A DNA stretch of 7,385 nucleotides from Dehalococcoidia bacterium (GTDB taxonomy: Bacteria; Chloroflexota; Dehalococcoidia; UBA1151; UBA1328): positions 1 through 7,385 of the forward strand of contig JASLNQ010000107.1 of the NCBI GenBank assembly GCA_030745955.1. The letters run 5' to 3'. Made by a program: the position numbers and the translations under genes. This document shows, one piece after another, positions 1,446 through 4,110 of this stretch (within the stretch, counting starts at the first letter, position 1; each line of letters begins with the position of its first letter). The notes below the pieces were generated by a model, which did no database searches, was not told the DNA's origin, and was given only the letters and a program-made list of their open reading frames with translations.

Positions 1446-1474
1446 AAAGTAGTGCGGAATCACCTTCGGGTCAA
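1446..1474 (-). promoter_or_regulatory. Candidate promoter for cinA
   Basis: Read on the minus strand, TTGACC (1474-1469) is followed after exactly 17 bases by TACTTT (1451-1446). This is a plausible sigma70-type -35/-10 pair and would give a leader of roughly 90 bases before the cinA ATG. Its -35 element lies about 35 bases from that of the rightward SOS-type promoter, so the two promoters are back to back. None of the GAAC-N4-GTTC boxes overlaps this promoter, so cinA is not obviously under the same repressor. The call rests on motif match only. Confidence 0.45.
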
Positions 1475-1508: not shown

Positions 1509-1538
1509 TTGACATGATTAGAACAAGTGTTCGATAAT
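1509..1538 (+). promoter_or_regulatory. Strong sigma70-type promoter under SOS-box control
   Basis: A perfect TTGACA (-35, 1509-1514) is followed after 18 bases by GATAAT (-10, 1533-1538, five of six consensus positions). The predicted transcription start is near 1545, about 40 bases before the ATG at 1585. One GAAC-N4-GTTC palindrome occupies the spacer and reaches the edge of the -10. A second covers the predicted start point, and a third lies just before the ribosome binding site. Near-consensus promoter strength with overlapping operators is typical of a gene kept silent until the repressor is removed. Confidence 0.8.
1521..1532. promoter_or_regulatory. SOS (LexA/Cheo-type) box 1
   Basis: GAACAAGTGTTC matches GAAC-N4-GTTC exactly, the LexA operator core of Bacillus, Actinobacteria and Dehalococcoides. 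It sits between the -35 and -10 elements, so a bound repressor would exclude RNA polymerase. LexA itself is not encoded in the window, so the identity of the binding protein is inferred. Confidence 0.78.
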
Positions 1539-1539
1539 A

Positions 1540-1551
1540 GAACAATCGTTC
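1540..1551. promoter_or_regulatory. SOS (LexA/Cheo-type) box 2
   Basis: GAACAATCGTTC is an exact GAAC-N4-GTTC match. Its symmetry extends to TAGAAC/GTTCTA arms (1538-1553), making it the most symmetrical of the three. It lies directly after the -10 hexamer, over the predicted transcription start, with its centre 19 bases from that of box 1. Confidence 0.8.
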
Positions 1552-1559
1552 TAATATGA

Positions 1560-1571
1560 GAACGCCAGTTC
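1560..1571. promoter_or_regulatory. SOS (LexA/Cheo-type) box 3
   Basis: GAACGCCAGTTC is a third exact GAAC-N4-GTTC match, centred 20 bases after box 2 and ending just before the GAGG ribosome binding site. Its G+C-rich centre suggests weaker binding than the A+T-richer boxes 1 and 2. The even 19-20 base phasing puts all three on roughly the same face of the helix, which would allow cooperative repression. Confidence 0.68.
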
Positions 1572-1584
1572 CGAAGAGGTCAAG

Positions 1585-2304
1585 ATGAACCAGACAGCAG
1601 CCGCAGTTATCACGCCGGAAGTGCCCCGAACATCCGGAACAACATCACTGGTATCGAGACCCGGACTGCCCGATGGCGAGTTGGCGGATAGCGGGTTGAA
1701 CGCGGCCCGGGCACGGATTGTCCAGAGTGTCACCGACCGTGGCAATCACGAAGGCACAACCATCACGGTCGACCTTGTGCCGGGTGAGAGTGCGCAGGAG
1801 TTTTCGACACGGTTGCGAATGCTCCTCCTGTTCATGAACCGTGAGACGAACTCGGTTTCGGCGACGGTCTCTCCGTCTTTTCAGAACGATACGTACCCGG
1901 CGATGCTTGCTCTTGTGAACGGTTTTCACCGTTCTGGAGCAGGCGGTGACTGGCGCCCGGACGGGCCGCGTGCGATACGCGTGGGCAAATCGAGGCACCT
2001 GTTTGTGAGCGTGGACATGCCGGTTGCCGACCGGAGCCCTTCTCCCGACACGATGCTTGAGGTCATTGCGGCACACAGGGTCGAGGCTTCCTGGTACGAC
2101 CAGCGTGTGCGCCCGCGTGCATCCTCCCTCGGACTGACGGTCGTGATGTTCGGCGTCCCCGAAGTGATCAGTACGCAGGCGAGTCCCGGTTCGAACTTTG
2201 CCAGTTCGGTTTTCAAGCGGGAACGCGCCAGAAACCTGTCGGGCCGGCCCGGTGGGGTTCACTTTTCACGTCAAGCAGACTGGGCCGCCAGTGCGGCCGT
2301 CTGA
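1585..2304 (+). CDS. Unrecognised 239-residue protein, predicted SOS-induced
   Basis: I do not recognise the family. The start is well supported: ATG at 1585 has GAGG at 1576-1579 with a 5-base spacer, and the strong promoter and operators sit immediately upstream. Residues 1-35 are rich in Ala, Thr, Ser and Pro and look disordered. An alpha/beta body follows at about 38-195. It includes a beta-like TTITVDLVP (58-66), an amphipathic, hydrophobic helix around FSTRLRMLLLFMNRE (73-87), a strand-like HLFVSVDMP (138-146) and a hydrophobic LTVVMFGVP (184-192). The tail (205-239) is basic, then Ser/Ala-rich. I see no Cys, signal peptide, clear transmembrane helix, Walker motif or nuclease signature. 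Codon third positions are G/C-rich, as expected for a real gene here. Its regulation suggests a DNA-damage role such as a cell-division inhibitor or repair accessory factor, but that comes from context only. Confidence 0.72.
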   Translation: MNQTAAAVITPEVPRTSGTTSLVSRPGLPDGELADSGLNAARARIVQSVTDRGNHEGTTITVDLVPGESAQEFSTRLRMLLLFMNRETNSVSATVSPSFQNDTYPAMLALVNGFHRSGAGGDWRPDGPRAIRVGKSRHLFVSVDMPVADRSPSPDTMLEVIAAHRVEASWYDQRVRPRASSLGLTVVMFGVPEVISTQASPGSNFASSVFKRERARNLSGRPGGVHFSRQADWAASAAV

Positions 2305-2352: not shown

Positions 2353-2766
2353 ATGGTGATGACGCTTCTCGCTCCTGTCAGGTCCGACACGCTGCCGGAG
2401 AACACGCGGTACCGGGACGATGGGTGCGATGCTTCCGCGACCTGCCTGGACTGTCCGCTACCGCTGTGTAAGTACGATGACCCCGGTTGGCTGCAGCGAG
2501 AGAGCCGCCGGACCCGCGACGACGCGATATTCCGATTGCGCCAGGAGAGGGTCCCGGTCGCAGAGATTTCACGAAAGTTCGGGATAAGCACGCGTACCGT
2601 CCACCGGATCGTCCAGCGTGGCGGGGCCACTCCGGTCTCCGTGGCCGAAGAGGACGAGGGTCCGCTGATTTCGCTTCGAGAGCTCGAGGCGGCGTCGCTG
2701 TTCCGGGCGCGGACGCCGCTGCCGGTGCTCCGGGCTGGAGATTCATCCCGGTTTATCGCGAGCTAA
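2353..2766 (+). CDS. Small protein with Cys4 cluster and helix-turn-helix domain, putative transcription regulator
   Basis: This 137-residue protein has four cysteines in a compact cluster, C25-x5-C31-x2-C34-x4-C39, with CLDCPLPLC at its core. A Tyr-Asp-Asp-Pro linker follows. A helical region with a helix-turn-helix comes next (about 54-90), with VAEISRKFGIS (69-79) as first helix and turn and TRTVHRIVQR (80-89) as recognition helix. This resembles the HTH of resolvases and sigma-like regulators. The Cys cluster could bind zinc or an iron-sulfur cluster; the sequence does not decide which. From memory, this Cys4-then-HTH layout recurs in Chloroflexota proteins without assigned function. The C-terminal 45 residues are acidic, then Leu/Arg-rich. 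The start is ATG 2353, with GGAG at 2341-2344 and an 8-base spacer. It lies 48 bases after the SOS-linked gene, on the same strand and perhaps co-transcribed. DNA binding is likely; its targets are unknown. Confidence 0.78.
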   Translation: MVMTLLAPVRSDTLPENTRYRDDGCDASATCLDCPLPLCKYDDPGWLQRESRRTRDDAIFRLRQERVPVAEISRKFGISTRTVHRIVQRGGATPVSVAEEDEGPLISLRELEAASLFRARTPLPVLRAGDSSRFIAS

Positions 2767-2790: not shown

Positions 2791-4110
2791 ATGATCTCTG
2801 GCGAAATGACCACAGCTCGCGCACTTCCTGATCACCCACAACTACGGCCCATCGAAGTAAGTCGCATCTCTCACGAGGGAAGCGACTTCTTCTTGTTAAA
2901 AGACCCGCGACGCCTCCGTAATCAGACATTGCTGGTTCCGGTCCCACTCGGGCTGTACCTCCAGAACATGGACGGCACGAACACCATTGAGGAGATCATC
3001 GAGCTTGCGGTGGCCGGCGGGGCACAACCTTTCCCGAAGGAAGTTTTCAACGATCTGCTGGGTCGACTGGACGAGGTGCTTCTGCTTGCCAACGGTGCGT
3101 ACAACGCCGAGATTCAGAAGAGGCTGCGCGAGTACAGGGAAGCACCGGCACGGAAGCCGGCGCTGGCCGATCTCGCATATCCGGGAAAGCCCGACGATCT
3201 TCGAGCCTGCCTGGACGGGATGGCATTTCCGTACATGTCCTCCCCAACCGGACAAAGCGCCGATGGACATCCACCAGTATCAGCACCTGAAACCCCGCAA
3301 TGGCGGCTCAAGGCCATCGTTTCGCCGCATATCGACTTCGAGCGGGGTGGCGACTCGTACGGAATGATCTGGGAGCAGGTCCGGGACGAGCTCCAGGACG
3401 TCGAATTGTTTGTCGTCTTTAGGACCGATCACAACGCTGATGGCCCGCGTCTTACGCTCACGGAACAGAACTACGCGTCACCGATTGGCGAACTCGAGAC
3501 CGACCGGGAACTCGCCCGTGAGCTGGCGGCCATCCTCACCTCGGACACTACGATCGAGAACCACGCATTTGCCGACGAGTTCAACCACCTCAGTGAACAC
3601 TCCATCGAACTGGCAACGGTCTGGCTGCACCGGGCGCTGGGCAGATCGCAGGCGAAAATGCTGCCCGTGCTCTGCGGATCGTTCGGGCGGTTGCTGCTGG
3701 ACGGTGCCCCCAACCCCGACGCTCATCCCCGGATCGGCGCCGCGATCGCGCAACTGGAACAGGTCGCAATTGAACGCCGGACTGTATTCGTGGCCGCCGC
3801 CGACCTATCACACGTCGGCCCTGCGTTCGGCGACCCCGATCCAGTGCCGGCAACGAGCGAAGAGCGAGAACGGGTCCAGGCGGATGACGAGAGGTTGCTC
3901 GCGGCGATCGCCAGGGGCGACCGGCGCCAGTTTTTCGATCAGATCAGGTCTGTGTCAGACGCCAACAAGGTTTGCGGCCTTGCGCCGATCTACATGACCC
4001 TCTGGGCTGCAGGCGCGAGCACGGGGGTCTGGAACGGCTATCGGCAGTGCCAGGCCGACGAAGACGACACGTCGTTCGTGTCGATTGCGGGTGCGGCCCT
4101 CTACGGGTGA
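2791..4110 (+). CDS. amrB: MEMO-family protein (AmmeMemoRadiSam system protein B-like) with N-terminal extension
   Basis: Residues about 172-439 form the MEMO domain, related to class III extradiol dioxygenases. Candidate metal-site and active-site residues are in place: His180 in SPHIDFERGG, His214 in FRTDHNADGP, His270 in EHSIEL, His341 in AADLSHVGP and Cys395 in KVCGLAPIY. Human MEMO1 uses equivalent His/His/Cys ligands. Residues about 18-115 are an extra domain, with LLKDPRR, LDGTNTIEEI-like and LGRLDEVLLL segments, similar to the PqqD-like front part of many bacterial homologues. A low-complexity linker (about 145-170) joins the two. The usual partners, AMMECR1 and the radical SAM protein, are absent here, so this copy stands alone in the window. 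Its biochemical role is not established for bacteria. Neither ATG 2791 nor ATG 2806 has a clear Shine-Dalgarno. The gene begins 24 bases after the Cys4-HTH gene and in the same frame, which suggests translational coupling. Confidence 0.9.
   Translation: MISGEMTTARALPDHPQLRPIEVSRISHEGSDFFLLKDPRRLRNQTLLVPVPLGLYLQNMDGTNTIEEIIELAVAGGAQPFPKEVFNDLLGRLDEVLLLANGAYNAEIQKRLREYREAPARKPALADLAYPGKPDDLRACLDGMAFPYMSSPTGQSADGHPPVSAPETPQWRLKAIVSPHIDFERGGDSYGMIWEQVRDELQDVELFVVFRTDHNADGPRLTLTEQNYASPIGELETDRELARELAAILTSDTTIENHAFADEFNHLSEHSIELATVWLHRALGRSQAKMLPVLCGSFGRLLLDGAPNPDAHPRIGAAIAQLEQVAIERRTVFVAAADLSHVGPAFGDPDPVPATSEERERVQADDERLLAAIARGDRRQFFDQIRSVSDANKVCGLAPIYMTLWAAGASTGVWNGYRQCQADEDDTSFVSIAGAALYG

Follow-up and report, generated by a model that had tools for sequence, protein, structure and literature searches.

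A predicted LexA-controlled operon with a putatively domesticated, catalytically dead terminase module in Dehalococcoidia

Introduction

The palindrome GAAC-N4-GTTC is the LexA operator type of Bacillus and Actinobacteria, according to PMC3323433. Three exact copies of this palindrome precede a gene for a 239-amino-acid (aa) protein in a 7385-base stretch of DNA from a Dehalococcoidia bacterium (GenBank assembly GCA_030745955.1, contig JASLNQ010000107.1), which was analysed computationally over its whole length and is termed “the window” throughout. The gene, here called pseudo-TerL, codes for a putative stand-alone descendant of the ATPase domain of a phage large terminase (TerL), and it is followed by a gene for a helix-turn-helix (HTH) protein, with which it would form an operon. 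LexA of D. ethenogenes is said to be the subject of a 2002 report; in the open-licence literature we found no papers on LexA binding in Dehalococcoides and nothing on an SOS-controlled dead terminase.

SAR202 bacteria, among which relatives of the locus are found, are abundant in the ocean. Light inhibits and kills the cultured SAR202 strains, as stated in PMC10444878, in whose available text neither “SOS” nor “LexA” occurs.

The locus is best read as a terminase module that has been domesticated, is catalytically dead and stands under strong SOS control. We hold with good confidence that the 239-aa product has its origin in the ATPase half of a large terminase from a tailed phage and that its operon is regulated by LexA; this confidence covers regulation and ancestry and excludes the final action of the product. 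Pseudo-TerL has probably taken on a new role in the response to damage.

A tandem of LexA-type boxes over a near-consensus promoter

The three palindromes are the sole exact GAAC-N4-GTTC matches in the window, against an expectation of 0.15. As a preliminary description of this DNA had claimed, they lie within 51 bases, their centres being separated by 19 and 20 bases (Table 1), and they occupy the places it had given them, namely the promoter spacer, the expected start point and the region ahead of the ribosome binding site. The hexamers TTGACA and GATAAT (five of six consensus bases), which it had seen to frame box 1, form the top promoter-like site across positions 1350-2900 (11/12 match, spacer of 18). 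Its view that chance could hardly account for such clustering agrees with dinucleotide shuffling: at least three sites anywhere in the window arose in 1/200 shuffles, and not even two sites within 60 bp arose in any of 3000 further shuffles. An Rfam scan of the window found nothing.

An alignment of 34 homologues, searched against genome contigs, yielded 22 loci (Chloroflexi, Dehalococcoidia, SAR202, Candidatus Lucifugimonas marina). Among the loci is the copy of the cultured strain Candidatus Lucifugimonas marina JH1073 (L007). The promoter set also numbers 22, comprising the window and 21 of the loci; L017, whose contig starts within the gene, was omitted. Box 1 is perfect in 22/22 promoters. 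Box 2, at +19, is perfect in 17/22 and differs by no more than one base in 21/22, the exception being L020, where the box stands at +18 and has a single mismatch. Just three of the 22 promoters (the window, L001 and L013) have a third perfect box in the 50 bp past box 2. What is conserved in the operator is therefore the pair formed by boxes 1 and 2, the triple form being a lineage-specific, local elaboration; of the arrangement reported in the preliminary description, it is the double and not the triple form that recurs upstream of orthologues.

The exact tandem with a 7-base gap occurs in 15 of the 21 genomes behind the loci, at 16 places, every one of them directly upstream of the pseudo-TerL gene, and a reversed-pattern control gave no tandem in the 21 genomes. 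The six genomes devoid of the exact tandem include those with a mismatch in the second box. In a class-wide sample of 393 genomes, a tandem with a gap of 7 or 8 bases was found in 18, ten times at the pseudo-TerL gene and eight times elsewhere: upstream of lexA (L244), next to an ImuB-like gene (L248) and to TetR-like genes (L249, L250), in the vicinity of a serS-like gene (L245-L247) and, with no gene assigned, in L240, these gene names being readings of translations. At the level of the class, uniqueness of the tandem boxes to the pseudo-TerL gene is thus ruled out.

LexA assignment and the predicted SOS regulon

The 21 related genomes stand in for the window’s own genome in all counts of lexA, recA, uvrA and polymerase genes. 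LexA (TIGR00498, curated cut-off) and RecA each score above cut-off in all 21. The regions upstream of lexA carry GAACATTAGTGC in 19/21 genomes and the GTAC variant GAACATTAGTAC in the other two, while GAAC-N4-GTGC, with an identical left half-site and a weaker second half, stands upstream of recA in 21/21. ImuB-type polymerase genes have a perfect box upstream in 9/11 cases (the ImuB-type and DinB-type labels are readings of translations). As a background rate, GAAC-N4-GT[TG]C occurs in 132 of 2200 random 500-bp segments. Judged from these sequences, the palindromes are supported as a LexA (SOS) operator in the relatives, in line with the assignment made in the preliminary description.

The boxes of the pseudo-TerL promoter are better and more numerous than those of lexA or recA, and late release would therefore be expected. 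With LexA dimers bound to box 1 within the spacer and to box 2 across the start, RNA polymerase would be excluded and the pseudo-TerL/HTH operon silenced. Upon DNA damage, active RecA would bring about self-cleavage of LexA, and the pseudo-TerL promoter would be released late. Tight repression and late induction of the operon are thus predicted, and the operator probably opens only upon DNA damage.

Terminase ancestry of the 239-aa protein

In a fold comparison the predicted fold of the 239-aa protein is of the terminase type and corresponds to the ATPase domain of a large terminase; profile homology to TerL confirms this fold by sequence. Profile A2, built from 26 diverse short forms, matches 212/393 genomes of the class. 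Matches of at least 163 bits come from 16 genomes, all in frames of 155-287 aa, whereas the next-best matches reach at most 126 bits and, among the matches listed, lie mostly in frames of 420-1074 aa. The long frames that were read (L137-L150) contain RQGGKN, LLE[IV]DE and a C-terminal half. Four long forms were scanned, each of which matches PHROG terminase large subunits; Terminase_6C exceeds its cut-off in L150 (5e-6), gives a weak match in two others and is missing from the fourth. The long cellular TerL has 182 relatives in IMG/VR, of which 80 were kept; a named relative of the cellular and IMG/VR proteins is TerL of Bacillus phage vB_BboS-125 (31% identity over 97%).

The homology holds in both directions. 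All 80 kept viral TerL match A2 with E 3e-23 or better, and a profile built from six full-length TerL recovers the short gene in 21/21 genomes (E 1.3e-11 to 1.1e-25), covering positions 7-187 of 461 and matching nothing else there. Accordingly, no full-length TerL of this family was found with the TerL profile in the 21 genomes that carry pseudo-TerL, and scans of viral contigs found no short form. A quick tree places 34 short forms on one branch among the terminases (Shimodaira-Hasegawa-like approximate likelihood ratio test 100, length 1.89). A perfect box within 400 nt upstream of TerL is present in 0/80 viral and 0/14 cellular cases, some of which have less than 400 nt upstream. The 239-aa protein is of terminase ancestry, yet it is like no family tested; scans with NCBIfam, PHROGs and PADLOC gave no match.

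Loss of catalysis and purifying selection

The motif alignment combined 130 short forms with 102 TerL (22 cellular, 80 viral; 99 distinct, three rows being repeated), after P0103, P0108 and P0110, each shorter than 190 aa, had been dropped. The Walker A Lys and the Walker B Asp are present in 102/102 TerL and in none of the short forms; the Walker B Glu and the Thr after the motif III Gly are likewise invariant in TerL and are each found in 5/130 short forms, among which no GK[NST]-type loop occurs. The C-terminal RNase H-like nuclease domain, marked by Terminase_6C at 301-440 of the L150 TerL, is missing from the short forms, which measure 194-276 aa and correspond to the N-terminal TerL segment given above. 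With three defining features of terminases missing (Walker A Lys, Walker B Asp-Glu and nuclease), the protein is not classed as a terminase. From the loss of the residues for ATP binding and hydrolysis and of the nuclease half, pseudo-TerL is predicted to be catalytically dead, and it could therefore act only as a binding module.

Of 69 positions conserved to at least 97% in the TerL ATPase domain, 13 are kept, 18 partly kept and 38 lost in the short forms. Among those kept are P97 and E159 (both 130/130) and G190 (128/130), and the short forms have acquired invariants of their own, P154 and W170 (both 130/130) and R178 (128/130). The ratio of nonsynonymous to synonymous substitution rates (dN/dS) of pseudo-TerL is 0.11-0.29 in six pairs, one saturated pair having been excluded, and thus well under 1; the comparison genes lie lower (cinA 0.01-0.09, phoU 0.02-0.07).

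Operon and gene neighbourhood

The HTH gene lies directly 3' of pseudo-TerL in 21/22 loci, and an HTH homologue also follows the short form in 16/16 loci of the class sample (L121-L136). An HTH homologue also follows TerL in 5/14 cellular TerL loci and lies within 1.5 kb after TerL in 5/80 viral contigs. L160 and L161 show the gene order terL-HTH-portal-major head protein, with other frames between terL and HTH in L160. Aligned with the phage versions, the host protein retains their HTH and all four of their Cys, and its best PHROG, like that of two phage versions, is phrog_836, a late transcriptional activator; the match of the host protein (E 5.2e-5) is confined to the generic HTH segment. 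Modelling of the HTH protein gave a fold of low overall confidence (predicted local distance difference test 73.7, predicted template modelling score 0.43), which was kept out of the fold comparison.

Host genes surround the operon in most loci: cinA is divergent in 20/22 loci, phoU follows in 19/22, and protein scans of the window found no head or portal gene. The MEMO-like gene downstream is perhaps co-transcribed with pseudo-TerL and HTH. In L001, from position 7926, HTH and MEMO genes were not found between pseudo-TerL and phoU, pseudo-TerL itself being open. The whole cinA-pstB region occurs twice (L004 and L015) in one metagenome-assembled genome (JABIFF01), most likely as two strains in one bin. 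The divergent cinA has a promoter-like site of its own, TTGACC and TACTTT with a 17-base spacer (window 1446-1474, minus strand); this arrangement is present in 14/22 loci, in most of which the spacer sequence is similar.

Table 1. Features of the pseudo-TerL operon and its promoter in the window
Feature	Position	Strand	Basis or remark
-35 hexamer TTGACA	1509..1514	+	promoter scan; TTGAC 11-12 bases 5' of box 1 in 21/22 promoters
Predicted LexA box 1, GAACAAGTGTTC	1521..1532	+	fills the -35/-10 spacer; perfect throughout the promoter set
-10 hexamer GATAAT	1533..1538	+	promoter scan
Predicted LexA box 2, GAACAATCGTTC	1540..1551	+	over the expected start point; conserved at +19
Predicted LexA box 3, GAACGCCAGTTC	1560..1571	+	5' of the ribosome binding site; lineage-specific
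Ribosome binding site GAAGAGG	1573..1579	+	read from the sequence; ATG at 1585
Pseudo-TerL, putative stand-alone, catalytically dead large-terminase ATPase-domain descendant, 239 aa	1585..2304	+	fold, profile homology, motif table
Residues 66-72 PGESAQE, replacing terminase Walker A RQGGKNE	1780..1800	+	alignment column counts
Residues 157-164 MLEVIAAH, replacing Walker B LLEVDESQ	2053..2076	+	E159 kept, D and E lost
137-aa protein with four conserved Cys and HTH, operon gene 2	2353..2766	+	Pfam HTH_23, E 3.1e-7
MEMO-like (AmmeMemoRadiSam system protein B) gene	2791..4110	+	library matches; follows in 16/22 loci

Chromosomes of Dehalococcoidia also hold apparent pairs of a small and a large terminase (L151-L153, L156-L158), which have no neighbouring head genes in the stretch shown. 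The pairs of L151-L153 have identical flanks, the small terminase being a reading of the translation, and most class genomes have one terminase match among the matches listed. This could point to an element resembling a gene transfer agent. In L154 (2903-4272), a MEMO-like and an AMMECR1-like gene, so named from their translations, are separated by some 5 kb from a terS-terL pair; in the window, a MEMO-like gene comes after the dead-terminase operon.

Weighing regulation, ancestry and function

Several findings weigh against LexA control of a terminase descendant. Pseudo-TerL and terminases are only 20-29% identical; the protein has no Pfam match in the library scan, and sequence searches of the PDB returned rows at chance level only. 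The outgroup of the quick tree is unclean, as it does not form one side of a branch, and the tree carries a warning that long branches come together at the short-form stem. With regard to regulation, no box was found within 500 bp upstream of uvrA (0/21) or of DinB-type polymerase genes (0/19), which rules out boxes at every SOS gene of the group and makes the predicted regulon a small one. The preliminary description had proposed a scan for boxes upstream of recA, lexA, uvrA and this gene; in the relatives they are present at this gene and, as the related GTGC and GTAC variants, at lexA and recA, and are missing at uvrA. Perfect boxes also arise by chance or serve other regulators: they number 45 in genome G002 against 58 for the reversed pattern, and the corresponding figures in G001 are 146 and 71. 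A subgroup of short forms (L132-L135) has no perfect box, and upstream of L132, L133 and L135 TTGACA is followed by a GTTCTAAATAGAAC palindrome in place of GAAC-N4-GTTC, perhaps reflecting a changed LexA specificity. Finally, two tandem places of the class scan adjoin TetR-like genes, as might be expected if the palindromes belonged to a regulator other than LexA. We consider this very unlikely, given the half-site shared with lexA and recA in 21/21 genomes and the further tandems upstream of lexA (L244) and beside an ImuB-like gene (L248).

As to the function of the product, a decaying phage-gene relic devoid of any function is hardly credible: catalysis and half of the protein are gone, yet 130 open short forms with their own invariants, the low dN/dS and the conserved promoter remain, and the selection data largely refute such a reading. 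It is also unlikely that the operon is, on the boldest of the alternative readings, a phage-packaging decoy, in which a LexA-released dead terminase and a phage-type HTH protein would jam the packaging or the late gene control of a waking prophage. The homology to TerL across the ATPase domain without catalysis, the HTH partner common to phages and the timing would suit a decoy, as DNA damage also wakes prophages. Yet the carrier genomes are devoid of a full-length TerL of the family, PADLOC gives no match, and the same host genes flank pseudo-TerL in most loci, unlike the usual patchy defence genes; moreover, the TerL-invariant positions are mostly changed, which speaks against a retained old partner surface.

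A block of the SulA kind, whereby pseudo-TerL would bind the division machinery and halt division until repair is complete, is conceivable though doubtful. SulA has a RecA-like fold without a P-loop, strong LexA control is known from other SOS division inhibitors, and tight silencing would suit a product harmful to undamaged cells; however, the 239-aa protein has no SulA-family match in Pfam at E 0.1, though a distant relation is possible, no link to ftsZ was seen, and the HTH partner points to DNA. The HTH protein may itself be the effector, an SOS-induced second-tier transcription regulator akin to the phage late activator that it resembles, with pseudo-TerL as accessory subunit. The retained Cys and HTH and the best PHROG argue for this reading, whereas the generic extent of that PHROG match and the missing HTH gene in L001, despite an intact pseudo-TerL, argue against it, and we likewise regard it as a doubtful possibility. 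In view of the vertical synteny, the purifying selection and the new invariants, we tentatively propose an SOS effector that serves the host, at somewhat less than an even chance, a likelihood shared by the checkpoint-like and the regulator readings. Such a pseudo-TerL would act as a binding module; its HTH partner is the counterpart of the phage HTH protein located between terL and portal in some phages, and together the two may form a checkpoint-like adaptor for DNA or for a protein of the host.

The identity of the gene product, which the preliminary description did not state, is more surprising than the operator. If true, the conversion of a phage motor into a damage-controlled protein with neither ATPase nor nuclease would represent a new mode of phage-gene reuse. 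For SAR202, the analysis offers a concrete, testable SOS regulon consisting of lexA, recA, ImuB-type genes and the dead-terminase operon with the best boxes.

Comparison with known systems

The operator itself is a variation on the known GAAC-N4-GTTC type of LexA operator. With the operators of Bacillus and Actinobacteria it shares the identical eight specified bases and the placement over the promoter, and the left half-site also occurs at lexA and recA of the SAR202-type group. In contrast to those operators, two perfect boxes are present here with a 19-bp, turn-plus spacing that is kept across the group, joined by a third box in the window, and the lexA and recA boxes of the group end in GTGC or GTAC instead of GTTC.

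The product shares with TerL of the Bacillus phage BCD7/vB_BboS-125 group the ATPase-domain fold and profile homology in both directions, whereas it has neither the Walker A Lys and Walker B Asp nor the nuclease half; unlike a phage TerL, it is encoded by a chromosomal gene under LexA-type boxes. The SOS division inhibitors SulA, YneA, SidA and SosA likewise combine a strong LexA-type operator with no repair-enzyme signature, yet a sequence relation of pseudo-TerL to SulA is not detectable (Pfam, E 0.1). Gene transfer agents, finally, also retain a phage packaging gene in the host chromosome; by comparison, the motor at this locus appears to be dead, and it stands in the window without an adjoining head or portal gene.
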